Positions 6,677-23,795 of a stretch of DNA of 64,000 nucleotides are shown here, piece by piece (position 1 is the first letter of the stretch; each line of letters opens with the position of its first letter). This DNA comes from Halobaculum rubrum (lineage in GTDB: Archaea; Halobacteriota; Halobacteria; Halobacteriales; Haloferacaceae): the NCBI RefSeq assembly GCF_019880225.1, contig NZ_CP082284.1:1674001-1738000 (forward strand), given 5' to 3'. The notes beneath the pieces were generated by a model. It searched no databases, was not told where the DNA came from, and saw nothing but the letters and a program-made list of their open reading frames with translations. The position numbers were made by a program, and so were the translations under genes.

Positions 6677-7420
6677 ATGACCATCGAACCGGAGGAGGCC
6701 CTCCCGACCGAGGGGCTCGTCTGCGTCGTCGGCGCCGGCGGCAAGAAGACGACCCTGTACACGCTGGCGAACAGCCTCGACCGCGCGGTCGTCACCGCGA
6801 CGGTCCGCATCCCGATATTCGACGACCACGTCGCGCGAGTCGGCGTCACGGGGGACCCGGTCGACGCGCCGGCGGAGGCGAAGGCGGGCGACTTCCCGCT
6901 CGGCCTCGTCCCCGAGCGCGAGCGCGACGACCGCTATCTCGGCTACGATACCGCCGTCGTCGACGACCTCGCGGCCGCCCACGACGGGCCGGTGCTCGTG
7001 AAGGCCGACGGCGCGCGCATGCGCGAACTCAAGGCCCCCAGCGACCGCGAACCGCAGATCCCCGCGAGCGCCGACGCCGTGGTCCCGATCGCCTCCGCGC
7101 ACGTCGTCGGCGAGCCGCTGACCGACGAGCACGTTCACCGCCCCGAGCGAGTCGCGGCGGTCGCGGGGATCGACGAGGGCGAGGCGATCACCGCCGGTAC
7201 GGTCGGTCGCGTCCTCGCGTCCCCCGCGGGTGGGCTGAAGGACGTACCTCCCGGAGCCGAGACGGTCGCGCTCGTCAACAAGGTGGACGACGCCGACGAC
7301 GAGGCCGTCGCGCGCGAGGTCGCCCGCGCGGCGTTCGACGCGGACGACGCGGGGCGGCTCGACCGCGTGGTGCTCGCGGCGCTCGGCGAGGGGCGGGTGG
7401 TCGACGTGCTCGACGCGTAG
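6677..7420 (+). CDS. yqeC: YqeC-family protein (selenium/molybdenum cofactor accessory)
   Basis: A 247-residue protein that matches the YqeC family: a P-loop-like VGAGGKKTTLYTLA near residue 17, then VKADGARMRELKAP near residue 108 and EPQIPASADAVVPI. In bacteria YqeC genes travel with selenium-dependent molybdenum hydroxylases and with MocA/MobA-like nucleotidyltransferases; the exact reaction is unproven. Here it meets mobA tail to tail with no spacer, and an AOR-family oxidoreductase follows. No molybdenum hydroxylase of the xanthine dehydrogenase type is seen in the window, so its client may be the AOR homologue or lie elsewhere. Confidence 0.8.
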   Translation: MTIEPEEALPTEGLVCVVGAGGKKTTLYTLANSLDRAVVTATVRIPIFDDHVARVGVTGDPVDAPAEAKAGDFPLGLVPERERDDRYLGYDTAVVDDLAAAHDGPVLVKADGARMRELKAPSDREPQIPASADAVVPIASAHVVGEPLTDEHVHRPERVAAVAGIDEGEAITAGTVGRVLASPAGGLKDVPPGAETVALVNKVDDADDEAVAREVARAAFDADDAGRLDRVVLAALGEGRVVDVLDA

Positions 7421-8113
7421 CTATCGCGGGGCCAACGCCTCGGCGGCCGCCTCGAACTCCTCGCGGGTGTTGAGGTTCTCGAAGCTCCGCTCGTCGACGC
7501 CGAGGGCGTCGAGCTCGTCGGCGCCGACCTCCGCGTACTCGAGGTCGAAGAGGGGCGCGACGATCTTGCGGTCGCCCCGCGCCAGCGCGGCGTCGCAGGC
7601 GTCGGCCATCGCCCCGGCGCGGTAGGCCGCGTGGGTCGTCTGGAACCACTCGTCGTCGACCCGGGGGACGACGGCGTCGAGGCCGCCGCCGTCGATCCGG
7701 TCGAACAGCGCGTCGACGAGCGCGGGGTCGACGAACGGCATGTCGCAGGCGACGACGAACGCGGGGGCGTCCGCGCCGGCGGCGTGGTCCACGTCGTCGC
7801 CTCCGCCGCCCGCGCCGTCGTCGGCCGCCCACCCCTCGACCCCCCGGAGCACCGTCCGGATGCCCGCCATCGGCCCCTCGTCGGGGTCGGGGTCCTCGGC
7901 GTAGCGGACGGGGTTCGAGTACCCGACCATCGCGTTCTCGATGTCCGCCCGCTGGTCGGCGCGGCAGTTGACGACCAGGCGGTCGGTCGCGTCGGCGAGT
8001 CGGTCGGCGACGCGGCGGATCATGGGGACACCCGCGAGGTCGGCGACGGCCTTGTCGCGGTCGCCGAAGCGGGTCGAGCGCCCGCCGGCGACGACGGCAG
8101 CGTACCGTGGCAT
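7421..8113 (-). CDS. mobA: Molybdenum cofactor guanylyltransferase-like (MobA)
   Basis: A 230-residue GT-A-fold nucleotidyltransferase. The N-terminal motif VVAGGRSTRFGDRDKA (near residue 7) is the NTP-binding loop. EGPMAGI and CDMPFVDPALVDAL (metal-binding Asp region) follow in the order expected of MobA, which attaches GMP to molybdopterin. The loop has GGRSTRFGDRDK in place of the usual GGxSxRMGxDK. A CTP-using MocA-type enzyme, or a cofactor for the neighbouring AOR homologue, are alternatives. It is antisense to its neighbours and converges directly on yqeC. Confidence 0.82.
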   Translation of the reverse strand: MPRYAAVVAGGRSTRFGDRDKAVADLAGVPMIRRVADRLADATDRLVVNCRADQRADIENAMVGYSNPVRYAEDPDPDEGPMAGIRTVLRGVEGWAADDGAGGGGDDVDHAAGADAPAFVVACDMPFVDPALVDALFDRIDGGGLDAVVPRVDDEWFQTTHAAYRAGAMADACDAALARGDRKIVAPLFDLEYAEVGADELDALGVDERSFENLNTREEFEAAAEALAPR

Positions 8114-8223
8114 ACCCGAAGACGGGTCACGGCGAGTGAAAACGCCTGCGGGCGTGACAGCCAAGCCAGCGCGGCTCGCCCCCTGGCAAACCCTTATCGG
8201 CGTCGACTGTTTCCACGGTGACG

Positions 8224-9987
8224 ATGACACGGACCCGGGTGCTCCGCGTCGACCTCTCGGCCGGGACAGCCACGTTCGAGACGGTCCCGGAGGAGTGGCG
8301 GCGCCGCTATCTCGGCGGCAAGGGGCTCGGCGCCCGGTACCTGTACGACGAGCTGTCGCCCGGGGCCGACCCGCGCGGTCCCGAGAACCTCCTCGGGTTC
8401 ATGCTCGGCCCGCTGTCGGGCGCGCTCCCCGGCGAGTCGCGCTACGCCGCGGTGACGAAGTCGCCGCTGACGGGGGCGTTCCTCGACTCCTACTCCGGAG
8501 GGACGTTCCCGGACCGGCTGGCGGGGTCGCTGCCGGACTGTCTCGGCGTGCTCGTGACGGGCGCGGCCGACGAGCGGACGGCGCTGGTCGTCGGCGACGG
8601 GGACCCCCGACTCGAAGCCGCTGGCGACCTCGCGGGCGCCGACACCGTCGAGACGGCGGAGGCGTACCCCGACGCGGCGGTCGCGTGCGTCGGACCGGCC
8701 GGCGAGCGGGAGGTCGCGTACGCGACGATCGCTTCCGACGCCGGCGACCACCACGCCGGCCGCGGCGGCGCGGGCGCGGTGCTGGGCGCGAAGAACCTCA
8801 AGGCGGTCGTCGCGCGCGGCGACCCGCCGGACGTGCCCGACGAGCTCGCGGCGCTGCGCGAGACGTACGCCGACGCGTTCGCCGCCGACGACGCCGGCAA
8901 GTGGCAGACGGCGGGGGAGACGCTGGAGTCGATCGACTTCGCCGCCGAGGTGGGAGTGTTGCCCGCGAACGGCTGGCGCGACACCGCCAACGAGGTCGAC
9001 GGCATCGGGATCGAGGCGGCCGCGGCGGCCGCGGTCGGACGCGAGCATCCCGAGGACGACGTTCCCGGCGGCTTCCGCGTCGAGACAGACGACGGCGAGA
9101 CGGTCCCCCGCGGGGCGGCGCCGATGACGCTCGGCGCCGGGTTGGGGATGGACGACTTCGACGCGGTCGCGGCGCTGGGTGAGGCGTGTGACCGCCTCGG
9201 CGTCGACGTGATCACCGCCGGCAACGCCGTCGCGTGGGCGGTGCGCGCCGGCGAGGTCGACTTCGAGTTCGGCGACGAGGACGGCGCGCGCGAACTGATC
9301 GAACGGATCGCCCGCCGCGCCGACGGCGACGACCTCGCGGACGCGCTCGCGGAGGGCGTCGACGCCGCCGCCGAGCGCTACGGCGGCGACGAGTACGTGC
9401 CGACGGTGAAGTCGATGGAACTGCCCGCCTACGACCCCCGCGGCGCGATCGGGATGGCGCTGGCGTACGCGACCGCCGACCGCGGCGGCTGTCACCGCCG
9501 CGCCCGACCCATCGAGGAGGAGGTGTTCCGCGAGGACTGGGACACCGCCCGCCGCGTCGAGGCGGTCGTCGGCGCACAGAACGCCCGCGCGGTGTTGTGG
9601 AGCCTCGTCGTCGACGACTTCGCCGGCGAGACGCTGTGGGACGACCTGGGCGCCGAGTGGCTCGACGCGCTCGGGGTTCCGCACGACGACCTCCGTCGCG
9701 TCGGCGACCGCGTGTGGACGCTCGTGCGGTTGTTCAACGCCCGCGAGGGGTTCGACCGCGACGCCGACGTCCTCCCGCCGCAGTTCGCCGAGCCGCTCCC
9801 GGCCGGCGAGGCGCCCGCGGCCGGCCGCGCCGTCGACGGCGAGGCGTTCGAGCGGCTGCTCGACGCCTACTACGCCGCCCGCGGGTGGGACGACCGGGGG
9901 CTCCCGACGGCCGAGCGCTGTCGCGCGCTGGAGCTCCCGACCGACGCGCCCGATCGACGCACCGACCGCCCGCGAGCCGAGGACTGA
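8224..9987 (+). CDS. Aldehyde:ferredoxin oxidoreductase homologue lacking Fe-S ligands
   Basis: A 587-residue member of the AOR family. The N-terminal pterin-binding domain is clear (RRYLGGKGLGARYLYDEL near 27, KSPLTGAFLDSYSGG near 79, HAGRGGAGAVLGAKNLKAVV near 177), and the C-terminal ELPAYDPRG near 399 also fits. Canonical members carry CxxCxxxC plus a fourth Cys for a 4Fe-4S cluster. Here the only cysteines are at 106, 155, 322, 423 and 566, none in a CxxC, and the fourth-ligand region reads NARAVLWSLVVD. Electron transfer to ferredoxin by the usual route should be lost. The ATG at 8224 is favoured over GTG at 8218 because a TATA-like cttatcg is centred about 28 bases upstream. Confidence 0.85.
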   Translation: MTRTRVLRVDLSAGTATFETVPEEWRRRYLGGKGLGARYLYDELSPGADPRGPENLLGFMLGPLSGALPGESRYAAVTKSPLTGAFLDSYSGGTFPDRLAGSLPDCLGVLVTGAADERTALVVGDGDPRLEAAGDLAGADTVETAEAYPDAAVACVGPAGEREVAYATIASDAGDHHAGRGGAGAVLGAKNLKAVVARGDPPDVPDELAALRETYADAFAADDAGKWQTAGETLESIDFAAEVGVLPANGWRDTANEVDGIGIEAAAAAAVGREHPEDDVPGGFRVETDDGETVPRGAAPMTLGAGLGMDDFDAVAALGEACDRLGVDVITAGNAVAWAVRAGEVDFEFGDEDGARELIERIARRADGDDLADALAEGVDAAAERYGGDEYVPTVKSMELPAYDPRGAIGMALAYATADRGGCHRRARPIEEEVFREDWDTARRVEAVVGAQNARAVLWSLVVDDFAGETLWDDLGAEWLDALGVPHDDLRRVGDRVWTLVRLFNAREGFDRDADVLPPQFAEPLPAGEAPAAGRAVDGEAFERLLDAYYAARGWDDRGLPTAERCRALELPTDAPDRRTDRPRAED

Positions 9988-9996
9988 CACCCAGCG

Positions 9997-10980
9997 ATGC
10001 CAGACAAGATCGACCTCGACGAACTCGACGTACAGCCCGACGACGACGAGCGACCCAACCGTGGCGACTGGTTCTGGGGCGACGACGCCGGCAGCGAGCC
10101 GTCCGGGGGAGCCGACGCGGCCGCGATCGACGACGACGGGACCGCGACTCCCGGCGACGAAACCGCGGCCGCCGGTGACGGAGCCGCGACCGACGACACC
10201 GGCTCCGCCGACGACGCCGCCGGTTCCGGTCCCGACGACGGCGCCGACACGGCGGGCTCGACCGACGGCTGGCGCTCGGGGGCCGCCCGCGCGGACGAAC
10301 TGGGCGCGAACGAGCCGGAGCCGCCGGCGTACGACGACGATCTGGGCGCGGATCTGGAGTCGGCGACGCCGCGGGTGCCGCACGCGGACGACGACAAGCC
10401 CGTCGGCATCCCTCGGGAGTCCGGCGGCGGCGGCGGCGTCTCGGCCGACGCGCGCGACGAGGAGACGCAGCAACAGCCCGAGGCGACGGGTCCCCACGGC
10501 GAGACGAAAAGCGACATGACGATGGCGCTGTCGTACCGGGCGGTCCGGTCGCTGTCGAGCCTCCACGCCGCGCTCGCGGACGCCGAGACGTGGACCGACT
10601 ACGTCGGCATCGTCGGCGACGTGGACGCCCACGTGATCAACAAGTACCAGCGCGACAACCGGCTGGACTTGGACTTCTTCAACGGCACCGGCACCGGCCC
10701 GAGCGAGCGCCTCGAGGAGGTCGGCCCGACCTCGATGTTCTACGCCGACCGGATGGTGCTGGTCGGCGTCGAGTCGGCGGGCGAGCGCGTGTGGGCCGAG
10801 CGCGCCGGCTGGGAGTTCGTCCCGCTGGCGGAGGCCGCCGAGGCGTCGGGATGGGCGCTCGACGGAAGCGAGGACGAGCGCAGCGAGTCCGCGACGCGAG
10901 CGGGGGATGAAACGACCCGCGAGCAGGGCGACGTGGATCGTGACGAGGACGCCATCCCGGACGACGGCGACGCGACCTGA
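9997..10980 (+). CDS. Acidic two-part protein of unknown function, partner of AOR homologue
   Basis: A 327-residue protein that starts 9 bases after the AOR homologue and is probably in its operon. Residues 1-170 are low-complexity and very acidic, apparently disordered apart from RPNRGDWFWGDD near 20. A compact conserved-looking domain follows (about 173-285; MALSYRAVRSLSSLH, INKYQRDNRLDLDFFNGTG, GPTSMFYADRMVLVGV). A second acidic tail ends it. I recognise this only as a haloarchaeal uncharacterised family. No signal peptide, membrane segment or cysteine ligand is present. Confidence 0.7.
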   Translation: MPDKIDLDELDVQPDDDERPNRGDWFWGDDAGSEPSGGADAAAIDDDGTATPGDETAAAGDGAATDDTGSADDAAGSGPDDGADTAGSTDGWRSGAARADELGANEPEPPAYDDDLGADLESATPRVPHADDDKPVGIPRESGGGGGVSADARDEETQQQPEATGPHGETKSDMTMALSYRAVRSLSSLHAALADAETWTDYVGIVGDVDAHVINKYQRDNRLDLDFFNGTGTGPSERLEEVGPTSMFYADRMVLVGVESAGERVWAERAGWEFVPLAEAAEASGWALDGSEDERSESATRAGDETTREQGDVDRDEDAIPDDGDAT

Positions 10981-12535: not shown

Positions 12536-13729
12536 TCAAGTGATCGTGAGCGGGAACGCTCGCTTCTCCCGCGGCGGAACGACGAAGTTGGCCCGTGACT
12601 GGGTGCTGATGAACTCGAGGATGCCGTTGTTCTCGCGGTCGGTGATGTCCGGGTGGTCGTCACGGAGGTACCAGCCGTTCATCGACTTCCGCGTCCGCCG
12701 GAAGTGTGCGAGTTCCCGCTGATAGCTGAGGAAGTGGACGCCGGTCCGACCGTGATCGACGGTGTTGAAGTCCCGACGGAGTACGACCGGTTCGCCGTCT
12801 CGACGGACGCGCGCGACCTTCTCGTGATGGCCGACGCTGCCGTGGTCGCGGGCGTGTTCGCGCACCGCGTCGGCGAACGGCACGTCCGTCCCGAGGTCCG
12901 CCACGTCCTCGGGGGTGAACTCGGGCGAGAACATCTTCCCGACCCGGCTCCCCTCGTCGACGGAGAACCACTCCGGGAGGTCGAACGTGATGTGCGAGAG
13001 GTGGGCGGTGGTGCCGCCCGCCAGCGGACCGTCCCCGATGGCGACGCGGTCCTCGCCGGCCTGCGATCCCTTCCGACCCGAGAAGAACCCCGAGAACATC
13101 GGCGCGTCGGCCTCCAGCCCCTCCACGTCGACGTGCTCCGCGGGCAGCCCCTCGCCGAGGAAGCCCGTCCGGCGGTCGCGGCGGCGAAACACGCCGCCGA
13201 GGGTGTGTTCGACCGGCTCGCCGTTCAGCTCGTCGCGCGAGCCGAACAGCGCGCTCTCGGCGGCCGGGAGATGCGACTGCACGTCCGACTCCAGCACGAG
13301 CATCGCGTCGAACCGCTGGAGCTCCTCGTCGTCGGTGCGGGTGAGCACCTCGGGGTGCTCGATGGGGACGCGTCCGAGCGCGTCGTTGTCGTCGAAGTAC
13401 CGCGACCCCCACGCGAGGGTGTGAAACAGCCCGTCGGGCGCCCAGCCGTACGCCGTCTCCACGGTCCGGAGCGCGCGCTCGACGGTCTCTGCGGCCTCCT
13501 CGGAGGGGTCGCGCTTCAGGTCCAACAGGAGGATCCGTCGGTGACGGGCCTGGAGCTCGTTGCCGTCGGCGTCGCGCCGGAGCACGTCGTTCTGTGCGAA
13601 CTGTCTGCTCGGAACCGGGTGCGGGTTGGCGTCGAGCGGGAGCCCGGGCGGCGCGCCGGTCGTGCAGCCGGCGACGCCGATCCCGGCCGCGACCGCGAGC
13701 TTCCCCAGCATGCTCCGTCGTGACGGCAT
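12536..13729 (-). CDS. Tat lipoprotein related to dye-decolorising peroxidase (DyP)
   Basis: A 397-residue secreted protein. The twin-arginine SRRSMLGKLAVA and lipobox VAGC (Cys22) predict Tat export and lipid anchoring outside the membrane. The C-terminal half follows DyP order: GFFSGRKG at 214 (position of the G-x-x-D-G motif), HLSHITFDLPEW at 243, a candidate proximal His in VGHHEKVAR at 299, RRDFN at 318, and GVHFLSYQRELAHF at 330. The catalytic Asp of GxxDG appears replaced by Ser, so activity may differ. The ATG at 13729 is chosen because a cttttgg box (13756-13762, minus strand) lies 30 bases upstream; GTG at 13744 is the alternative. Confidence 0.7.
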   Translation of the reverse strand: MPSRRSMLGKLAVAAGIGVAGCTTGAPPGLPLDANPHPVPSRQFAQNDVLRRDADGNELQARHRRILLLDLKRDPSEEAAETVERALRTVETAYGWAPDGLFHTLAWGSRYFDDNDALGRVPIEHPEVLTRTDDEELQRFDAMLVLESDVQSHLPAAESALFGSRDELNGEPVEHTLGGVFRRRDRRTGFLGEGLPAEHVDVEGLEADAPMFSGFFSGRKGSQAGEDRVAIGDGPLAGGTTAHLSHITFDLPEWFSVDEGSRVGKMFSPEFTPEDVADLGTDVPFADAVREHARDHGSVGHHEKVARVRRDGEPVVLRRDFNTVDHGRTGVHFLSYQRELAHFRRTRKSMNGWYLRDDHPDITDRENNGILEFISTQSRANFVVPPREKRAFPLTIT

Positions 13730-13861
13730 TCTACGACGTGTCACGGCTCACACGGCCAAAAGCGTTCGGTCGCCGCGGATCCGACGGACCGGGGCGACGC
13801 GTCGGCGACCGTCGACCCCGACACAAACGCTATGCGTCCGCGGACCGAGCGATCCCGTGTT

Positions 13862-14734: not shown

Positions 14735-15367
14735 TCACGTCATCTGCGCGACGATCTCGTCCTCGAACTCGACGAGACCGGCCAGGATCTCCGCGGCCGC
14801 GAGGAACAGCGGTTCGTCCGTCTCCTCCCGGATGTCGGCGACGGCGTCGTCGACCCACGTCATGAGGTGGTTGTCGAGGAACACGCGCTCGTAGCCGAAC
14901 GTCTCGTCTCGCCCCTCGCGCTGTTTGGTGACGAGCCACCGGAGGAACGCCAGCTCGACGGCGACGAAGTCGTTCTCCTCGGGGTACTCCTCGGGCGGCG
15001 TCCACCCGGCGGCGTCGTAGCTGGCCTCGACCTCCGCGAGCCCCTCGCCGATGAACTCCGTGTCCTCGCGGTAGTTCGTCTCGTGCAGCAGGACCGGCGG
15101 GCGCGGGCCGACGAACACCTCGGTGTACTTCCGGCGGAGCTCGGTGTGGAGCTCCTCGACGTCGTCGCTCTCGTGGGCGTCGACGAACGCCCGCACGTGC
15201 TCGAAGCCGGCGTCGAGGTGGTCGTTGACGTTGTCTTCCGGGGTGCGCATGTCGCCCGAGAGGAGATGCGAGAGGAACTCCTCGGTCGGCGCGTCGTGGA
15301 ACACCTCGATACAGAAGTCGATCAGTTCGATCCGGGCGTCGTAGACGGCGAGTTCGTCGGTGCTCAT
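14735..15367 (-). CDS. TorD/DmsD-family chaperone for molybdoenzymes
   Basis: A 210-residue all-helical protein. The YTEVFVGPRPPVLLHETNYRE stretch near residue 85 and the later EENDFVAVELAFLRWLV near 130 match TorD/DmsD/NarJ chaperones, which bind Tat signal peptides and assist molybdopterin insertion. It follows the HdrA/MvhD fusion on the same strand (36 bases apart) and lies across from the Tat-dependent formate dehydrogenase, the obvious client. Start ATG at 15367. Confidence 0.82.
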   Translation of the reverse strand: MSTDELAVYDARIELIDFCIEVFHDAPTEEFLSHLLSGDMRTPEDNVNDHLDAGFEHVRAFVDAHESDDVEELHTELRRKYTEVFVGPRPPVLLHETNYREDTEFIGEGLAEVEASYDAAGWTPPEEYPEENDFVAVELAFLRWLVTKQREGRDETFGYERVFLDNHLMTWVDDAVADIREETDEPLFLAAAEILAGLVEFEDEIVAQMT

Positions 15368-15402: not shown

Positions 15403-17553
15403 TTAACCGTTGTCGAACAGTAACTGCGCGCGGCAGTCGCCGCAGTACTCGAAGACGCTGTGGTCGGCGTCGGGCGCGATCCCCTCGACGAGCCCCCCGA
15501 CCTCCGACTGGATGTGCTCGGCGGAGGCCGCCGAGGTGAACGGGTCGCCGCAGCTGACGCATTCGAGCATCTCGCCGTCGTGGACGGTCTCCCAGCGCGG
15601 GTCGTCGTCGGCGACGGCGCCCTCGCCGGCGGTCCGGTTCTCGGGCAGCCGCGAGAGGTCCAGCCCTTGCTCCATCGTGATCGCGGTCTCGGGACAGCCC
15701 TCCTCGCAGAGCTCGCAGTTGACGCAGTCCTCGTGGTTGAACTGGAGGGTCCCGTCGTTCGTCCGACGGATGGCGTCGGTCGGGCACAGCGTCGAACACG
15801 TCGGCGTGAGGTTGCAGGCGTCGTTCACGGACATCACGCCGAAGTCCTTCAGTCCGCGGATCACCTCGCGCTCGGGCTCGGCGAACTCGAGGAGTCGCCG
15901 CACCGACTCGAGCGTCCAGTCGTGGCTGTTGAACGCGGGGTTGGGCTTGTCCTCGCGGACGACGCCCGTCGCGCGGTGCTCGCCCTCGGGGACGGGCGTC
16001 GGGTCCAGCGTCAGTTCGGTGAACCGGCCGATCTCCTCGGCGAACGCGGCGGGTTCGCGTGGGTCGGGCGCGAAGAACCCGACGCGCTCGCCCAGCCCGA
16101 GATCGCTCGTCGCGCGGTTGAGGCGGTCGACGAGGTCGGCCTTCGGGTCCGGGCCCGAGTGGAGGCAGTCGCCTCCGCAGCCGACGATGGCGACGCCGGC
16201 GGCGCCGGCCGCGAGCGCATGCATGACGTGCCCCTCGCCGACGGTGTCGGTGCAGTTCACCGCCACCGGAAGCACCGGCGGATAGGTGATGTCCTCGCCG
16301 GCGGCCGCGCGGCGGCCGTACTCGTCGAGCGCCGCGGCGGCGCGCTCGTCGCAGGTGAACGCGATCACGGGCGTCTCGATGCCGCCGTCGCCGCCGGTGA
16401 ACGGCCAGATGCCGCCCTCGTCGGTCTCGCGGCTGAGCAGCGCCTCGACCTCGCGGGCGATCCGCTCGTTCGACGGCTCCCGCAGCGACGTCGCGCCCGT
16501 CGGGCACGACGAGGTGCACGCGCCGCAGTTCTCGCAGGCGGTCAGGTCGAACTCCACCTCGTCGACGGCGGGGCGATCGACGGCGTCGTGCGGGCAGGCG
16601 TCGACGCAGGCGGTACAGCCCTGCTGGCCGGACTCGCCCGCGGCACAGACGTCCATCTCCAGATCGAGGTACTTCGGCTTCTCGACCCCGCCCAACAGCG
16701 ACTCCACGGCGGCGATCGTTCCGGCATCGACCGGGCCGGTGTAGTAGCCGATCCGACCGGCCCGCGCGGTCGACGTGCCCGCCGGGTCGACGACCTGATC
16801 GGCGCCGACGGTTCGCGTGACGCCCGAGAGATCGATCGCGTCAGTGGGACAGCAGTCGGTCCACTCGCCCTCCGGGGCGTCCGGGTGGATGTCGACGGGG
16901 CGTCGCGTCACCATGCCGTCGGGACCCTCCTTCACGCACTTCATACAGGAGATACAGTCGTCGGTGACGCGGGCCTCCACCCGCACCTCGAACTCGCCGA
17001 ATCCTCCCTCGACGGCGACGAGCCGGCCGCGCTCGACGCTCACCTCCGAGAGATCCGCGTCGGAATCGGCGTACTCCGCGCCGTCCGCGAGCAGCGTCAC
17101 GTCGGCGGTGTCGGCGAGCGCGGCCGCGGTCTCGGCGTCGCCGACGACGAGGACCTCCTCGCCGGCCTCCCGGGAGACGGTGCGCGTGGCGGCCTCGTAC
17201 TCGATGCCGGTGCGTCGTGCGTTGATCAGTCGCGCGGTCTTGTCCGTGGCGTCGTCGCGCTCGTGGACCCAGCCGGCCCGCTCGCGGTGGTCGACGTAGG
17301 CGGCCGCGTCCGGGTGGAGCCCGTTGCGCTCGACGAGGTCGTCGAACTTCGCCTTGCAGCCGTCGTCGCAGGCGCCCACGATCAGCTGGTCGAGGTCGTA
17401 CTCGTCGATCAGTCCGTCGACGGCGGGGAGCGCGTCCCGGCACAGCTGCTCGGAGGACGCGACCACGTCGACGTCGCGGACTCCGTCGCGGACCGACTCC
17501 AGATCCACGTCGCACGTTCCCCCGCACGAACAGACGAATGCCCCGACGTTCAT
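15403..17553 (-). CDS. HdrA-like / polyferredoxin / MvhD fusion protein
   Basis: A 716-residue cytoplasmic iron-sulfur protein with no signal or membrane segment. Order: an HdrA-type N-terminus with CSCGGTC (8-14) and CDDGC (62-66); a Rossmann-like stretch LVVGDAETAAALADTADVTLL (135-155) that lacks the G-x-G-x-x-G flavin motif; CISCMKC at 200 and CC at 234; two 4Fe-4S sites (CTACVDACP 313, CENCGACTSSCP 340); an MvhD/FlpD domain (NCTDTVGEGHVMHAL 433, VGCGGDCLHSG 458); another Fe-S pair (CNLTPTCSTLCP 580, CVNCELCEEGCP 610); and a zinc-finger-like end (CVSCGD, CGDC). MvhD normally links HdrA to a hydrogenase or formate dehydrogenase. Start ATG at 17553; the upstream TTG is not needed. Confidence 0.8.
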   Translation of the reverse strand: MNVGAFVCSCGGTCDVDLESVRDGVRDVDVVASSEQLCRDALPAVDGLIDEYDLDQLIVGACDDGCKAKFDDLVERNGLHPDAAAYVDHRERAGWVHERDDATDKTARLINARRTGIEYEAATRTVSREAGEEVLVVGDAETAAALADTADVTLLADGAEYADSDADLSEVSVERGRLVAVEGGFGEFEVRVEARVTDDCISCMKCVKEGPDGMVTRRPVDIHPDAPEGEWTDCCPTDAIDLSGVTRTVGADQVVDPAGTSTARAGRIGYYTGPVDAGTIAAVESLLGGVEKPKYLDLEMDVCAAGESGQQGCTACVDACPHDAVDRPAVDEVEFDLTACENCGACTSSCPTGATSLREPSNERIAREVEALLSRETDEGGIWPFTGGDGGIETPVIAFTCDERAAAALDEYGRRAAAGEDITYPPVLPVAVNCTDTVGEGHVMHALAAGAAGVAIVGCGGDCLHSGPDPKADLVDRLNRATSDLGLGERVGFFAPDPREPAAFAEEIGRFTELTLDPTPVPEGEHRATGVVREDKPNPAFNSHDWTLESVRRLLEFAEPEREVIRGLKDFGVMSVNDACNLTPTCSTLCPTDAIRRTNDGTLQFNHEDCVNCELCEEGCPETAITMEQGLDLSRLPENRTAGEGAVADDDPRWETVHDGEMLECVSCGDPFTSAASAEHIQSEVGGLVEGIAPDADHSVFEYCGDCRAQLLFDNG

Positions 17554-17748
17554 CGTCGGAGTCAACGGAGTGGCGCGTATATAGCTTGCGCCGCGAAACC
17601 GCGGGATGGCGTCATCCCGGGTGATCTTTCCGGTAGTTTTAGGGCTGCCAAAATAATTCCGTAACGATCGTGGCGAACATTAATAGGGGATGATTACATG
17701 AACCGGTACGATAGCATCTCAATCAGTGGTGGATGTCAACAAAGAACA

Positions 17749-20700
17749 ATGAGCACGGAACCGGTCTCACTGGACCTAGACAGACGGTCGTTCATGAAGG
17801 CGAGCGCGTTGGCCGGCGCGGTCGCCCTCGGTGGCGGCGGCGCCGGACAGGCGCTGGCGCAAAGCGACGAGGGAGAAGAGGACGGAACGGACACAGATCA
17901 CAACGAGCTGACGAAGACGATCTGTAACTACTGCTCGGTCGGCTGCGGCTTCCACGGCGAGAAGAAGGGCGACGCGTTCGTCGGAATGGAGCCCTGGGAG
18001 GACCACCCGATCAACAACGGGTCGCTCTGCTCGAAGGGCGCCGGCATCTACGAGACGGAGCACTCCGAGAAGCGGCTGAAGTCGCCGATGCGGAAGGTCG
18101 ACGGCGGCTGGGAGAAGCTCTCGTGGGACGAGGCGTACTCCACGGTCGCCGACGAGCTGACCCGGATCAAAGACGAGTACGGGGCCGACAGCACGATGTG
18201 GCTCGGGAGCGCGCACCACTCCAACGAGGAGTCGTACGCGTTCCGGAAGCTCGCGTCGCTGTGGGGCACGAACAACGTCGACCACCAGGCGCGCATCTGC
18301 CACTCGACGACGGTCGCCGGCCTCGCGAACACGTGGGGCTACGGGGCGATGACGAACTCGATCAACGATTATCGGAACTTCGATATGAACCTGATAATCG
18401 GGCAGAACCCCGCCGAGGCCCACCCGATCGCGATGCAGCACATCCTCGAAGGGCAAAAGCGCGGCGGGGACATCGTCGTCGTCGAGCCGCGGTTCACGAA
18501 GACCGCGGCCCACGCCGACTACTTCTACCGCCTGCGTCCCGGCACGGACGTGGCCCTCATGATGGGGGTCATCAAGCAGCTCCGCGACCGCGACGAGCTG
18601 GACGACGAGATGCTCGAGGGGCGCGTGCAGGCGTGGCCGGACGTCGAGAACGACCTCGACGACTACGACCTCGAGACGGTGTCGGACATCACGTGGCTGT
18701 CGACCGACGAGATCGAGGAGCTGACGGATCTCGTCGTCGAGAACAAGCCGAAGATGCAGATCGAGTGGGCGATGGGTGGAACCCAGCACAACAACGGGAC
18801 CCAGAACATCCGCTCGTACGCGATGCTCTCGCTGGGCGCCGGCGCGGCGGCCCAGTCCGGCGGCGGCCTGCAGGTCATGCGCGGGCACGCGAACGTCCAA
18901 GGGGCGACCGACCTCGCGGTCGCGAGCCACATCCTGCCGGGCTACTACTCCGTCGGCTCGCCCGGCTCGTGGCAGTACTGGTGTGACGTCTGGTCGCGCA
19001 CGCCACAGACCTCGGGCACCATCGAGTTCGAGGACCTGTACGAGGAGTACGGGACGATGCCGGCCGACAAGTACGTCCGGCAGTCCACGAACACCGAGAA
19101 CGCCGACGACATCGACGAGTCGTTCCCGGCGGAGCACTCGATGATGTTCCAGAAGGGCCTGACGGTGGCCCGCTGGTTCGACGCCGCGCTCCCGAAGGAG
19201 GAGCGGCTCAACGAGACGCCGATCTACCAGCCGAACCAGCTGAAGGCGGCGATCGTGTGGGGCCACTCGCTGAACTCCATCTCGGAGATGGAGAAACAGC
19301 GGAAGGCGATCGAGAACCTCGACCTGCTGGTCGTGGTGGACGTGTTCCCGTCGGTGGCGTCGGTGCTGGCCGACGTGGACCAGTCGGACACGGAGGTCGT
19401 CCTGCTCGCGGCCTCCAGCCAGTACGAGCACTACCGCTCGCTGACGAACTCCCACCGCGCGACCCAGTGGTCCGAGCCGGTTCGCTCGCCGGGTCACAAC
19501 TCGCGCCCCGACCTGCGGATCATGCAGGAACTCGCCGGTCACCTCGGCATGGGCGAGCACTTCGACTGGGGCTCGGGTGTGGACCTGTACAACGGGAAGT
19601 CGACGTACGAGTCCGTCATCCGGGAGTTCAACCTCGGCATGCGGACCATCGGGTACTGCCAGGACCCCGAGCGCCTCCAGCAGCACCTGGAGTACGACTA
19701 CGCCTTCTCCACTGAGGACGCGAAGGCGCACGCGCCCGGCACGCCCGTCGACGGCGAGTACTGGATGCTCCCGTGGCCGTGCTGGGGCGAGGGGCACCCG
19801 GGGACGCCGATCCTCTGGAACGACGACATGGACCCCAACGACGGGGGTCAGGACTTCCGCGCCCGCTGGGGCACGCAGGCGCCCACGCCCGGCGAGTGGG
19901 ACGAGATGGCGACCGACGAGCCGTACCCGATGCAGGAGACGGTCGACCAGATGGGCGAGGAGGCGGGGCTGAACCTGCTGCGTGACTCCTACGAGCCCGA
20001 CTGGCACGACAGCGAGGTCGAGGGCGTCCCGCAGTACCCCGGCTTCGCGACGACGATGCCGGACGACCCCTCGAACGCGGACGCGCTGACGATCCCGTAC
20101 GAGTACGCGCTCGACCCGGACAGTTCGGTAGCGGACGCGGCCGAGGCGATGAACGAGACGTACGACTGGGCCGACTACGACACGGACTTCTACGGCCAGT
20201 TCGACAACCCGCAGCCGGACGCGCCGACCGGGCGCGGCCGCGCCCGCGGCGTCGTCTGGAGCTTCCTCGACACGACGCCGGTCCACCGCGAGCCGATCGA
20301 GAGCCCGCGGCCGGACCTGGTGGAGCAGTGGCCGTCGAACGGGCAACAGCGGAACTTCTACCGGCTCGATCAGAACAACTCGACGGTCCAGGAGGACTCC
20401 ATGCAGCGGCTCACCGACGCCGGCGCCTTCGAGGAGCAGTCGGGCGACGCCGAGTGGACGATCCTCACGAGCGGCCGCCAGGTCGAACACCAGGGCGGCG
20501 GCTCGGAGACGCGCTCGAACAAACACACCGCCGACCTCCAGCCGCACATGTACGTGGAGATCAACCCGGACATGGCCGAACGGCTGGGTGTCGACGGCGG
20601 CGATCTCGTGGTCGCGTCGACGACCGACCGCGGGTCGATCCTCGTGAAGGCGCGCGTCACCCACCGCCCGAACGACAGCGAGACGTTCTTCCCGTTCCAC

Positions 20701-21021
20701 TGGGGCGGGATGTTCAAAGGCGAGTCGCTGGAGGACCGCTACCCCGAGGGGACGGTGCCGTACGCCATCGGGGAGCCGGTGAACGCGATCACCTCCCGCG
20801 GCTACGACGTGGAGACGCAGATGCAGGAGACGAAGGCGTCGATGGTCCGGCTCCAGCCGGCGACGCCATCGGTGGTCGAGGAGCTGTCGATGCGGCCCGT
20901 CGAGGAGGACGGGCTCTCGGAGAACGTCGTCGACATCGAGTCGTACGAGTTCCCGCAGGACCGCGACGGCTTCGGCCGGCAGAAGGACTTCGACGTCCGC
21001 GACAGCAGCACGGTTCAGTGA
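17749..21021 (+). CDS. fdnG: Formate dehydrogenase catalytic subunit (FdnG-like, Cys type)
   Basis: A 1090-residue Tat-exported molybdopterin oxidoreductase. The signal DRRSFMKASALAGAVALG (11-28) ends near GQALAQ. Next come the 4Fe-4S ligands C59, C62, C66 and C94 and the catalytic Cys184-His185 in QARICHSTTVAG, where E. coli FdnG has selenocysteine. Downstream NPAEAHPIA and MRGHANVQGATD fit formate dehydrogenase-N. It is longer than the usual 1015 residues, with insertions around 680-850. It oxidises formate on the outer face and passes electrons to the following ferredoxin and cytochrome subunits. The ATG at 17749 places the twin-arginine near the end; ATG 17698 would add 17 residues. The upstream 100 bases are AT-rich and divergent from the HdrA/MvhD gene. 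Confidence 0.88.
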   Translation: MSTEPVSLDLDRRSFMKASALAGAVALGGGGAGQALAQSDEGEEDGTDTDHNELTKTICNYCSVGCGFHGEKKGDAFVGMEPWEDHPINNGSLCSKGAGIYETEHSEKRLKSPMRKVDGGWEKLSWDEAYSTVADELTRIKDEYGADSTMWLGSAHHSNEESYAFRKLASLWGTNNVDHQARICHSTTVAGLANTWGYGAMTNSINDYRNFDMNLIIGQNPAEAHPIAMQHILEGQKRGGDIVVVEPRFTKTAAHADYFYRLRPGTDVALMMGVIKQLRDRDELDDEMLEGRVQAWPDVENDLDDYDLETVSDITWLSTDEIEELTDLVVENKPKMQIEWAMGGTQHNNGTQNIRSYAMLSLGAGAAAQSGGGLQVMRGHANVQGATDLAVASHILPGYYSVGSPGSWQYWCDVWSRTPQTSGTIEFEDLYEEYGTMPADKYVRQSTNTENADDIDESFPAEHSMMFQKGLTVARWFDAALPKEERLNETPIYQPNQLKAAIVWGHSLNSISEMEKQRKAIENLDLLVVVDVFPSVASVLADVDQSDTEVVLLAASSQYEHYRSLTNSHRATQWSEPVRSPGHNSRPDLRIMQELAGHLGMGEHFDWGSGVDLYNGKSTYESVIREFNLGMRTIGYCQDPERLQQHLEYDYAFSTEDAKAHAPGTPVDGEYWMLPWPCWGEGHPGTPILWNDDMDPNDGGQDFRARWGTQAPTPGEWDEMATDEPYPMQETVDQMGEEAGLNLLRDSYEPDWHDSEVEGVPQYPGFATTMPDDPSNADALTIPYEYALDPDSSVADAAEAMNETYDWADYDTDFYGQFDNPQPDAPTGRGRARGVVWSFLDTTPVHREPIESPRPDLVEQWPSNGQQRNFYRLDQNNSTVQEDSMQRLTDAGAFEEQSGDAEWTILTSGRQVEHQGGGSETRSNKHTADLQPHMYVEINPDMAERLGVDGGDLVVASTTDRGSILVKARVTHRPNDSETFFPFHWGGMFKGESLEDRYPEGTVPYAIGEPVNAITSRGYDVETQMQETKASMVRLQPATPSVVEELSMRPVEEDGLSENVVDIESYEFPQDRDGFGRQKDFDVRDSSTVQ

Positions 21022-21027
21022 TTCCCA

Positions 21028-21720
21028 ATGGCAACTAACGAAACCAGCAAGCAGGTGATGAGTCAGGGGGTGATGAGCACCGGCGACGGGGCTCGGATCT
21101 TCCCGGACGTCGAAGCCTGCATCGACTGCGGCGGGTGCGTCGTCGCGTGCAAACGCACGTGGGACGTGCCCAGAGACGAACAGCGAATCAGCATCTCGAC
21201 GATGCTGGAGGGCCAGCCCGCCGAGCCGATGGAGCGGTACAACACCAACAGCGGCGGCGCGCTCGGGCAGGAGGGTGCTTCGCCGGGCGAGACGGCGATC
21301 CCGATGCAGTGTTACCACTGCGAGGAGGCGCCGTGCGTCTCGGTGTGCCCGACGGACTCGTTGATCAAGAAGGACGACGGGTTCGTCGACGTGCGCGACA
21401 ACCTCTGTGTGGGCTGTCAGTACTGCCTGTCCGCGTGCCCGTTCGGGGCGCCGCAGTTCCCCGGCTCCGACGATGGCACCGCGCGGCTGTTCGGCAACGG
21501 CGGCACGATGGACAAGTGTACGATGTGCGAGGAGCGCCAGGACGTGGGCAAGGGGCCCGCCTGCGCCGAGGAGTGCGCGACCGACGCGCTGCTCGTGGGC
21601 GACGCCGAGGAGATCTCGAACGAGCTCGACCGGCGCGGCTCCGACTCGTTCTTCAACGGCGTCGCCATGGAGATCATCTTCGGCGAGGACGCCGACGAGT
21701 TCGAGGGGAGCAACGCATGA
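21028..21720 (+). CDS. fdnH: Formate dehydrogenase iron-sulfur subunit (FdnH-like)
   Basis: A 230-residue electron-transfer subunit with four 4Fe-4S sites: CIDCGGCVVAC near 31, CYHCEEAPCVSVCP near 94, CVGCQYCLSACP near 131, and CTMCEE paired with CAEEC near 168-190. It has no Tat signal of its own and would travel with FdnG. Its stop overlaps the next start (ATGA). It carries electrons from FdnG toward the cytochrome b subunit. Confidence 0.88.
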   Translation: MATNETSKQVMSQGVMSTGDGARIFPDVEACIDCGGCVVACKRTWDVPRDEQRISISTMLEGQPAEPMERYNTNSGGALGQEGASPGETAIPMQCYHCEEAPCVSVCPTDSLIKKDDGFVDVRDNLCVGCQYCLSACPFGAPQFPGSDDGTARLFGNGGTMDKCTMCEERQDVGKGPACAEECATDALLVGDAEEISNELDRRGSDSFFNGVAMEIIFGEDADEFEGSNA

Positions 21721-22175
21721 GCTACCGAGAGCACCTTCCGGAGACCAAGGGGTACCCGCGGACGGCGATCGCGATCAACGCGGTCGTCGCGCTCGCGGTG
21801 ACGGCGCTGATCCTGTGGTGGGCCGCGGACTTCGCGGTGTTCTACGAGGAACTGTTCCGTATCCAGCCCGTCGCCGAGGGCGCCAACGCCGGCGTCGGCT
21901 CCGACTGGACCTCGGGTAACCAGGTCGCGTGGCTCGATTTCCTGATCGCGATCACGCACGCGGCTGACGTGATCATGGGCGTGTTCATCCTGTTCATGGT
22001 GTTCCTTCACTGGGGCGCGTTCCGTCGGCTCGCCGGCCGGATGCGCCAGCCCGGCGACTCGGGCTCCAGCGCCGTCGCCGCCGACGGCGGGCGCGTGGCC
22101 GACGAGGTCGCGACCGACGACGAGGCCGCGACGGGCGACGACACCGTCGCGACCGACGGAGGTGAGAGCCGATGA
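21717..22175 (+). CDS. Small two-helix membrane subunit in the formate dehydrogenase operon
   Basis: A 152-residue protein with two hydrophobic helices (about 17-42 and 72-98; AINAVVALAVTALILWWAADF and THAADVIMGVFILFMVFLHW) and a 45-residue acidic tail rich in Asp, Ala and Thr. It overlaps its neighbours by four bases on each side, so it is certainly co-translated with FdnH and the cytochrome. Standard FdnGHI has no such gene. Histidines H77 and H99 could bind heme or quinone at the membrane face. The role is inferred only. Confidence 0.7.
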   Translation: MSYREHLPETKGYPRTAIAINAVVALAVTALILWWAADFAVFYEELFRIQPVAEGANAGVGSDWTSGNQVAWLDFLIAITHAADVIMGVFILFMVFLHWGAFRRLAGRMRQPGDSGSSAVAADGGRVADEVATDDEAATGDDTVATDGGESR

Positions 22176-23179
22176 CGCAGCTCGATCACGGGAAGTTCAG
22201 CAGGATGACGACCACGTTCCACACGCTGTTGGCGCTGGACGTGTTCGTGCTGTTCTTCTCGGGGTACAGCCTCATGTTCAACGACGAACTGTGGTGGATG
22301 GTCGGGCTCATGGGCGGCGCCTCCGGCGTCTCAGCCGTCCACCGCATCGCCGGCGGCGGGCTGCTCGCGCTCATCGTCTTCTGGATGCTGATGATGGTGA
22401 CGACCGACACCGGCCGCGGCAACTTCCGGGAGATCCTGCCGTCGAAGGGCGACTTCGACGCGTTCATCCAGGACGTGCAGTTCCTCCTGGGGAACGCCGA
22501 CGAGCGCCACCAGAACGCCCGCCAGTTCGCGGGCGGCACGGCCGACGAGATCCCGCTGCTCACCTACATCGGCAAGGGCGTCGTGTTCATCTTCGCGATC
22601 GAGCTGGCGCTGCTGACGGTCTCGGGGATCCTCATCTGGTCGAAGACGGGCGTGATGGACATCATGGCGACGAAGACCGCCGCCGCTGCGTTCGTCACGT
22701 TCCACGGCCTGCTGGGCGTCATCATGCTGATGGGCGTCATGTTCCACATCTTCGAGCACGGCTTCCACCCGGCGCTGTACCCGGTGGAGGTGAAGGCGTT
22801 CATTCCGAAGTCGATGATCCCCGAGGATCACGACGACGACACCGAGGGAACGGGTATCGAGCGGCTCGAACTCTCCCCGTCCTGGAACATGGCGTCGACG
22901 ATCGTCGGCGCGATGACGGTGATCGGCATCGTGTCGGTCCTGCTCGGCAGCCTGTTCGACGAGGGGTACCCCGTCCCCCGCGAGCTCGCGATCGGGGGGG
23001 GGCCGGCCGACATCCTGCTGACCGTCGGTATCAACATGGGCGTGTTCGTGCTGCTGCTCGGGCTCGTCCTCCAGATGTACGGCAACCTGCTGCGCGTCCG
23101 CTGGCAGAAGCAGCTGGAGCAGGAGGCCTCGGAGCCGGCGACCGCCACCGACGGCGGGCACGTCGAATCCGACGACTGA
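22172..23179 (+). CDS. fdnI: Formate dehydrogenase cytochrome b subunit (FdnI-like)
   Basis: A 335-residue integral membrane protein with about five helices. Candidate heme-ligand histidines sit in helix 1 (TTFHTLLALDVF, H17), helix 2 (VHRIAGGG, H57) and later helices (TFHGLLGVIML, FHIFEHGFHP), in the style of cytochrome b561 subunits of formate dehydrogenase. The C-terminal part (about 235-320) has two further helices. It would reduce the quinone pool. A pyrimidine-rich run (ctccctctcttctcctcc, about 23211-23228) follows as a possible terminator. Confidence 0.8.
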   Translation: MTQLDHGKFSRMTTTFHTLLALDVFVLFFSGYSLMFNDELWWMVGLMGGASGVSAVHRIAGGGLLALIVFWMLMMVTTDTGRGNFREILPSKGDFDAFIQDVQFLLGNADERHQNARQFAGGTADEIPLLTYIGKGVVFIFAIELALLTVSGILIWSKTGVMDIMATKTAAAAFVTFHGLLGVIMLMGVMFHIFEHGFHPALYPVEVKAFIPKSMIPEDHDDDTEGTGIERLELSPSWNMASTIVGAMTVIGIVSVLLGSLFDEGYPVPRELAIGGGPADILLTVGINMGVFVLLLGLVLQMYGNLLRVRWQKQLEQEASEPATATDGGHVESDD

Positions 23180-23390: not shown

Positions 23391-23795
23391 TCAGGCCTCG
23401 ACGCCGAGGCGCAGCGCCTCCTCGCTCAGATCGACCGTCACGTCGTTGCTCGTGTGGGTGTTGATCTGCTCGACGTTTCGTGTGAGCACCTCCAGGATGT
23501 CCTTCGGCTCGGGGTACACGAGCATGTTCCCGTCGTCGTCCTCCATCACGAGCTGGGTGTCCGACAGCTGGATCTGGTTCCCCTCGATGCTGGCGACGAC
23601 CGCCGGCAGCGCCTGGGCGGCGCCGCTGTCGCCCTCTGTGACCTTCGTGATGTAGATGCTGTCCAGTCCGATGAGGTCCTTGTACTCGCGAACGGTCTCG
23701 GCGCACTCGACCATGTCCTTCGAGACCTCGGTTTTCGACGGGTTCCCGTGCTCGCCGGCGAGACAGTGCTTGCAGACGCGCAGCTCCATTCGCAT
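23391..23795 (-). CDS. Conserved haloarchaeal protein with N-terminal CxxC
   Basis: A 134-residue protein, MRMELRVCKHCLAGEHGNPS at the start with CKHC, later a lone Cys in VECAETVREY, and an alpha/beta C-terminal half. It might bind zinc, but only one CxxC is visible. The ATG at 23795 is supported by a strong tatatat box (23819-23828) centred 30 bases upstream; ATG 23789 is the alternative. It is convergent with the formate dehydrogenase operon. No family is recognised. Confidence 0.6.
   Translation of the reverse strand: MRMELRVCKHCLAGEHGNPSKTEVSKDMVECAETVREYKDLIGLDSIYITKVTEGDSGAAQALPAVVASIEGNQIQLSDTQLVMEDDDGNMLVYPEPKDILEVLTRNVEQINTHTSNDVTVDLSEEALRLGVEA

Follow-up and report, generated by a model that had tools for sequence, protein, structure and literature searches.

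HdrA2, or type Ia HdrA, carries an HdrA N-terminus, ferredoxins and a fused MvhD domain in that order, as described in passages of PMC12054007. The same order is found in the protein studied here, a 716-aa flavin-less HdrA/MvhD-type polyferredoxin labelled P, which is encoded at 15403..17553 on the minus strand of a 64,000-nucleotide stretch of the Halobaculum rubrum genome (contig NZ_CP082284.1, positions 1,674,001 to 1,738,000; this whole stretch is called the window and its numbering is used throughout). Unlike HdrA2, P is without most of the flavin domain and without HdrB, and it has an extra C-terminal ferredoxin pair and a CxxC...CxxC site. Judged from its architecture and gene neighbourhoods, P is probably a cytoplasmic accessory (maturation) polyferredoxin for metalloenzymes exported by the twin-arginine translocation (Tat) route, chiefly membrane-bound formate dehydrogenase (FDH).

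Other described proteins share some of these properties. The '4Fe-4S binding protein' of proteobacterial TorD-DUF3305/DUF3306-FDH clusters is a full-length homologue of P with the same neighbours, but its MvhD cysteines are gone and, in 7/8 members, so is the inserted single-cluster ferredoxin. FdhE resembles P in its genetic tie to an exported FDH and in its CX2C metal-binding pairs; according to passages of PMC10609526 it is an iron-binding rubredoxin that E. coli requires only for the periplasmic FDHs. However, FdhE shows no sequence match to P (Pfam) and the ferredoxins are found only in P. In the same passages (PMC10609526), NapF, a ferredoxin-type cytoplasmic protein, is listed beside NapD as serving to fold and assemble the exported nitrate reductase, but it has no HdrA or MvhD part. 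HydN and YsaA of E. coli are likewise ferredoxin-like and raise FDH activity (passages of PMC6004506), but they are small, have a different architecture and act on the cytoplasmic FDH-H. In the accessible passages of PMC4464133, fer4 and hybA genes appear among TorD/DmsD-linked operon neighbours (near TorD/DmsD-fdhGHI), with no function found given, and those of PMC9012536 report that some ANME-1 (anaerobic methanotrophic archaea) genomes encode membrane FDHs carrying signal sequences, with no mention of P found. Formate oxidation and an expressed membrane FDH have been reported for haloarchaea (passages of PMC5437934). No function for P was found in the literature searched, which consisted of abstract beginnings and passages and included few subscription journals. 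The RefSeq names of P-type proteins, 'hydrogenase iron-sulfur subunit' or '4Fe-4S binding protein', hide a family that tracks TorD and exported FDH across archaea and proteobacteria.

Domain architecture of P

P starts with an ATG, which is supported because orthologues share the same start region; an in-frame TTG is also present 12 bases upstream. The reading frame is no product of chance, since other genomes have full-length orthologues, mostly at 50-95% identity (the closest named relative, from Halobaculum saliterrae, at 95%), and bacteria have homologues. A locus search with P alone as query gave six loci, five of them with full-length orthologues. The gene and its parts, all on the minus strand, are as follows.

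15403..17553, minus: P, 716 aa (open reading frame, domain searches and alignment)
17164..17553, minus: HdrA-type N-terminal domain, residues 1-130 (NCBIfam HdrA models, cysteine counts)
16969..17163, minus: putative remnant of a dinucleotide-binding domain, residues 131-195, VVGDAETAAALAD (sequence, alignments)
16825..16968, minus: inserted single [4Fe-4S] ferredoxin site, residues 196-243, Cys 200/203/206/235 (domain searches, alignments)
16474..16656, minus: first ferredoxin pair, residues 300-360 (sites 303-350), eight Cys (domain searches, alignment)
16015..16368, minus: MvhD/FlpD domain, residues 396-513, Cys 401/434/459/463 (Pfam FlpD, E 1.3e-17)
15664..15831, minus: second ferredoxin pair, residues 575-630 (sites 580-620) (domain searches, alignments)
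15418..15576, minus: C-terminal CxxC...CxxC metal site, residues 660-712, Cys 665/668/704/707 (alignment)

The NCBIfam HdrA models align to residues 2-140 (model positions 2-142) and the HdrA2 model aligns residues 310-511 to model positions 579-764, both far under the curated cut-offs, with P scoring 71.7-98.5 bits against HdrA/HdrA2 cut-offs of 1100-1400 that are not reached. The FlpD/MvhD match (PF02662) includes the cluster cysteines, and Pfam ferredoxin domains lie at about 312-354 and 577-629. No match to FdhE domains (Pfam) or to the FdhD-NarQ domain was obtained in P. Taken together, the cysteine groups leave room for six or more Fe-S sites and, besides these, one CxxC...CxxC site, in agreement with the original prediction, which had read the chain as an HdrA N-terminus joined to MvhD with five or more Fe-S sites. 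No signal sequence or Tat motif was seen in P, and the protein is predicted to be cytoplasmic.

Deletion of the flavin domain

The dinucleotide motif of P reads VVGDAETAAALAD, with GDAETA at the GxGxxG position. The loss of the flavin-binding GxGxxG, noticed earlier, is thus real, and the change goes further. The stretch of P between the two HdrA matches, from residue 140 to 310, is 170 residues long, against about 437 in the HdrA/HdrA2 models, and no FAD (flavin adenine dinucleotide)-binding thioredoxin-reductase-type domain was matched in residues 140-310. We conclude from these lengths and models that most of the flavin domain is deleted in P and that the motif has not merely decayed. The spacing between positions 138 and 303 is 141-203 residues in all aligned relatives, except one with 110, and two relatives (L110 and L126) still read GGGAVG yet have a similarly short stretch. 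Since all aligned relatives share this short length, the flavin domain appears to have been shortened before the P lineages split, with the present motif as a remnant. Two AlphaFold models, each with six close sequences only, had a mean pLDDT (predicted local distance difference test score) of 43.4 (whole P) and 55.1 (residues 1-260) and were too poor for judging the flavin site.

These data bear on the idea that P is a flavin-based bifurcating HdrA paired with HdrBC encoded elsewhere, as its HdrA-type N-terminus and fused MvhD, shared with HdrA2, might suggest. With the flavin domain deleted, P should be unable to bifurcate electrons. Moreover, HdrB (TIGR03288) was found in 0/243 haloarchaeal genomes over the curated cut-off and had no match in the whole H. 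rubrum genome; neither HdrB nor HdrC was seen in the examined part of the window, no dedicated HdrC model search having been made, and the five CCG-domain matches in the genome all lie outside the window. We therefore rejected a bifurcating HdrA, which has next to no chance of being correct. The earlier view of P as HdrA/MvhD-derived, with its flavin site lost and no HdrB nearby, is upheld, which leaves no methanogen-type HdrA; the strictly co-conserved hdrBC named as evidence against that view was not found as far as HdrB is concerned.

Genetic linkage to TorD and an exported formate dehydrogenase

The genes around P that bear on its role are listed below.

14735..15367, minus: TorD/NarJ-family chaperone (Pfam Nitrate_red_del, E 3.5e-22), 35 bases after P on the same strand, adjacency conserved
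17554..17697, no strand: intergenic stretch of the divergent P and fdhA, presumably with both promoters, as judged from the gene positions
17698..21021, plus: FdhA-like catalytic subunit with Tat signal (TIGR01591, E 9e-129; TAT_signal, E 0.0011; both below cut-off)
21028..21720, plus: FdhB-like four-cluster subunit (FDH3_beta, E 2.4e-42, below cut-off)
21717..22175, plus: small membrane protein without a known family, conserved at this locus (Pfam, locus comparison)
22172..23179, plus: cytochrome b561-type membrane subunit, FdhC (PF01292, E 4.5e-19)
23391..23795, minus: 134-aa CxxC protein without a known family, conserved together with P in haloarchaea
8218..9987, plus: AOR-family enzyme, a frequent and not constant neighbour of P

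The Tat-signal FdhA and the b561-type FdhC fit the earlier view of P as divergent from an exported, membrane-bound FDH. The linkage is tight. We surveyed 243 haloarchaeal genomes (cut-offs: P, E <=1e-20; FdhA, E <=1e-200; TorD, E <=1e-10) and found P in 72, FdhA in 65 and TorD in 77; P and FdhA occur together in 63 genomes, P only in 9, FdhA only in 2 and neither in 169 (Fisher values for P co-occurrence ignore relatedness). The presence and absence of the two genes change together inside several genera. Of the 72 P genomes, 63 have FdhA no more than 8 kb from P and 65 have TorD no more than 3 kb from it.

Several of the discordant genomes contain diverged versions of the same pair. Among those scored as P only, two (G046 and G168) have a type B FDH plus a P copy at 29-31% identity, and four (G090, G161, G204 and G208) have an FdhA at 44-45% identity inside the fetched 20 kb; in G090 and G204 the gene after FdhB is NrfD-like, not b-type (Pfam for G090 only). 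G263 and the second P copy of G090 belong to type C, described below, and G225 has an N-terminally shortened P followed by a Mrp-like gene, recognised by eye. The remaining P-only genome, G100, showed no FDH in 20 kb. One of the FdhA-only genomes, G244, has a 29% homologue of P.

Partner enzymes in other loci

The partner enzyme varies while the TorD link mostly persists: b-type FDH, NrfD-type FDH, a Psr-like molybdoenzyme and, in one case, a [NiFe]-hydrogenase. In the five type C loci (L060, L061, L069, L070 and L084), P follows a Tat molybdoenzyme, a four-cluster subunit, NrfD and a TorD-family gene. The molybdoenzyme is Psr-like, its best NCBIfam match in L084 being PhsA, below cut-off. A MobA match lies near P in all five (and in L087, L112, L114 and L128), and a DUF59-Mrp gene directly follows P in L060, L061, L069 and L070 (recognised by Pfam in L069 and by eye in the other three). 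Arsenic genes follow the type C operon of L084. At L123:6042-11107, a P homologue lies beside a [NiFe]-hydrogenase with a Tat-signal small subunit (RRTFLK motif) and a large subunit, with genes resembling hyp maturation genes nearby (by eye).

Beyond haloarchaea, 45 of 226 genomes from the phylum match P at 1e-15, of which 10 are haloarchaea and 20 others have near full-length matches. From these 20, G385 and G425 were left out, as were the partial or split G304 and G355, and the split G284 was taken in. TorD is adjacent to P in 18 of the 19 non-haloarchaeal archaeal loci fetched, and an FdhA match was found in the stretch in 14, several of the contigs ending early. In bacteria, 8/8 annotated plasmid loci have the P homologue, TorD, DUF3305/DUF3306 and formate dehydrogenase genes in one cluster (a chosen selection of records, from which L083 and L086 were left out as they lack annotation; in the Sinorhizobium record the FdhA row is absent from the table and fdh3B is present). 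A Mrp/NBP35 gene is found in 5/8 of these loci. Profile comparison of P with the bacterial homologue gave an hhalign E value of 9.7e-59 over 631 columns, and the N-terminal 195 residues alone gave 1.7e-19.

Conserved cysteines

To compare the cluster sites we aligned 79 members: 48 haloarchaeal types A and C, 4 type B, 19 other archaea and 8 bacteria. The 53 loci with a P candidate gave 46 distinct sequences after identical ones were collapsed; divergent members missed by the motif filter were added by hand, and broken-frame or other filter-missed copies were left out. The eight cysteines of the first ferredoxin pair, seven of the second and the four C-terminal cysteines are present in 79/79. 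In the HdrA-type N-terminus, Cys 8, 10 and 38 are retained in most relatives and Cys 14 is restricted to the haloarchaeal A/C members. The remaining ligand position of the second pair, 583 (window 15805-15807, minus strand), is occupied by Thr in 48/48 haloarchaeal A/C members and by Cys in the other 31 members, and the Thr may give a [3Fe-4S] cluster. Each of the four MvhD cysteines is found in 48/48 haloarchaeal A/C members, 0/4 type B, 0/8 bacteria and, varying by position, 0-16 of the 19 other archaea. Since 12/12 type B and bacterial members are without these cysteines, any role through MvhD is not shared by the whole family; the path through MvhD would be dispensable, while both ferredoxin pairs (position 583 apart) and the C-terminal site persist in 79/79. 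In a tree, type C members cluster within the haloarchaeal A/C clade, and the grouping of type B with bacteria has no support (0.08).

These patterns bear on the possibility that P is an electron wire, exchanging electrons between a ferredoxin pool, for instance one reduced by AOR, and the membrane FDH or the quinone pool. At least six Fe-S sites and the intact MvhD cysteines of all 48 haloarchaeal A/C members would suit such a wire, as would AOR, which lies within 8 kb of P in 47/72 genomes (within 12 kb in 51/72) and is present in 69/72. However, 59 genomes have AOR but no P, and the bacterial loci opened show no annotated AOR beside their P homologues, so that an AOR wire as the sole explanation was rejected. 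A wire of any kind must contend with the Tat signal of FdhA, which would place the active side outside, with the pairing of P with TorD and not with a membrane or NAD/F420 module, with the loss in 12/12 members of the MvhD cysteines that a path through MvhD would need, and with reductase and hydrogenase partners, including the Psr-like reductase, that it leaves unexplained. We consider it unlikely. The earlier suggestion of a stand-alone wire for AOR-reduced ferredoxin was not supported, since the steady partner is TorD and AOR is inconstant.

A proposed role before export

We favour instead a role of P in maturation. P and the enzyme can meet only before export, because P has no visible signal sequence, and what dehydrogenase, reductase and hydrogenase have in common is the need for assembly and export, not one direction of electron flow. 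The clustering of MobA, Mrp/NBP35, DUF59-Mrp and FdhD genes with P in various loci further supports maturation. It had been noted earlier that the FDH should be on the wrong face of the membrane for P; the Tat signal that creates this puzzle is indeed present, and the puzzle itself would be resolved if P acts on the enzyme before export.

In the mechanism that we propose, P would have descended from an HdrA-MvhD fusion by deletion of the flavin domain and would act, together with its TorD-family partner, on apo-FdhA that has not yet left the cytoplasm. Most likely, single low-potential electrons would pass from the ferredoxin pool through the ferredoxin pairs of P to a reductive step on the apo-enzyme, which could be the loading or activation of the Mo/W-bisPGD (bis-pyranopterin guanine dinucleotide) or [4Fe-4S] centre, or a check of loading; TorD would then release the enzyme to the Tat exporter. 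The C-terminal CxxC...CxxC may serve as a metal site at the end of P that docks, similar in kind to the iron sites in FdhE. The postulated electron flow and the step that it serves, like the direct contact of P with TorD or FdhA, are all deduced from sequence and gene order. If P is a maturation factor, it would be an example of an energy-conserving module reused for assembly, and a candidate for the missing part in producing exported Mo/W FDHs in other hosts.

Several observations weigh against this reading. Genetic linkage is the entire basis of the presumed maturation function, and so many conserved Fe-S sites would be just as much in place in a working electron carrier. In the passages of PMC6004506, a cofactor role of HydN/YsaA is judged unlikely and other electron routes are preferred. 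No TorD was recognised in 19 kb around the hydrogenase-linked P of L123, and neither TorD nor a molybdoenzyme in the fetched stretches around the P copies of L059, L076 and L077. Conversely, the FdhA-only genome G044 (L079) has an FDH locus with TorD in which no P was recognised. The copies without partners lie at L059:9109-11475 (788 aa), L076:8708-10840 and L077:10244-12121, the last N-terminally shortened.

A variant of maturation in which P is a cluster scaffold or carrier, inserting [4Fe-4S] into the exported enzyme with Mrp/NBP35-type ATPases, would account for the hydrogenase-linked copy and for the Mrp-type genes in 5/8 bacterial loci and directly after P in type C. However, no Mrp gene was recognised beside the haloarchaeal type A copies, and ferredoxin-type sites are normally stable electron-transfer sites. 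Such Fe-S delivery is very improbable.

FdhD and the 134-aa CxxC protein

Genes for fdhD are near fdh operons almost always, with some archaeal exceptions, and fdhD and fdhE are critical in E. coli (passages of PMC10609526). FdhD (PF02634) was found in 0/243 haloarchaeal genomes, 65 of which have FdhA, although the same search was positive in 8/14 controls, including two methanogens; FdhE_N is absent from the H. rubrum genome. The absence of FdhD from all sampled haloarchaea would allow a direct test of the origin of, or need for, the FDH sulfido ligand. Haloarchaea differ in this respect from two other archaeal loci and one bacterial locus, where FdhD lies near P. Because these loci carry both, P is not simply a replacement for FdhD, and this candidate, which we had considered, is weakened.

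Neither Pfam nor NCBIfam has a match for the 134-aa protein (23795-23391). Copies with at least 58% identity, a limit chosen after a gap in the list was seen, are found in 67 genomes; 67/67 have P, and in 65 of them the copy lies within 13 kb of P. The five P genomes without it have type B, type C or a shortened copy. Some genomes that have no P also carry more distant copies (40-55%), and at E 1e-15 the protein is found in 106/243.

P, together with the CxxC protein, might give sulfur or reducing power for the Mo/W sulfido ligand, replacing FdhD in haloarchaea. The absence of FdhD alongside FdhA, in a search that detects it in controls, and the confinement of the CxxC protein (at >=58%) to P-positive genomes speak for this sulfur route. 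However, P coexists with FdhD in the three loci above, type B FDH loci are without the CxxC protein at >=58% identity, and no FdhD requirement is known for Psr-like enzymes or hydrogenases, which makes the route improbable. A bolder form of the maturation role, in which an HdrA-MvhD protein stripped of its flavin serves as a pre-export activator with TorD and, in haloarchaea, the CxxC protein, and makes haloarchaeal FDH active without FdhD, a sulfurtransferase regarded as essential in E. coli, is speculative and rather doubtful.

Other genes near the locus

The AOR gene belongs, with the YqeC, MobA and DUF7124 genes (window 6677-10980), to a second recurrent block near the FDH locus.

6677..7420, plus: YqeC protein (TIGR03172, over cut-off)
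7421..8116, minus: MobA-like nucleotidyltransferase
9997..10980, plus: DUF7124 acidic protein, which goes with the AOR gene

Finally, a DUF7405 protein with a weak Dyp peroxidase match is encoded at window 12536-13744 on the minus strand, and it adjoins TorD repeatedly in several type A loci.

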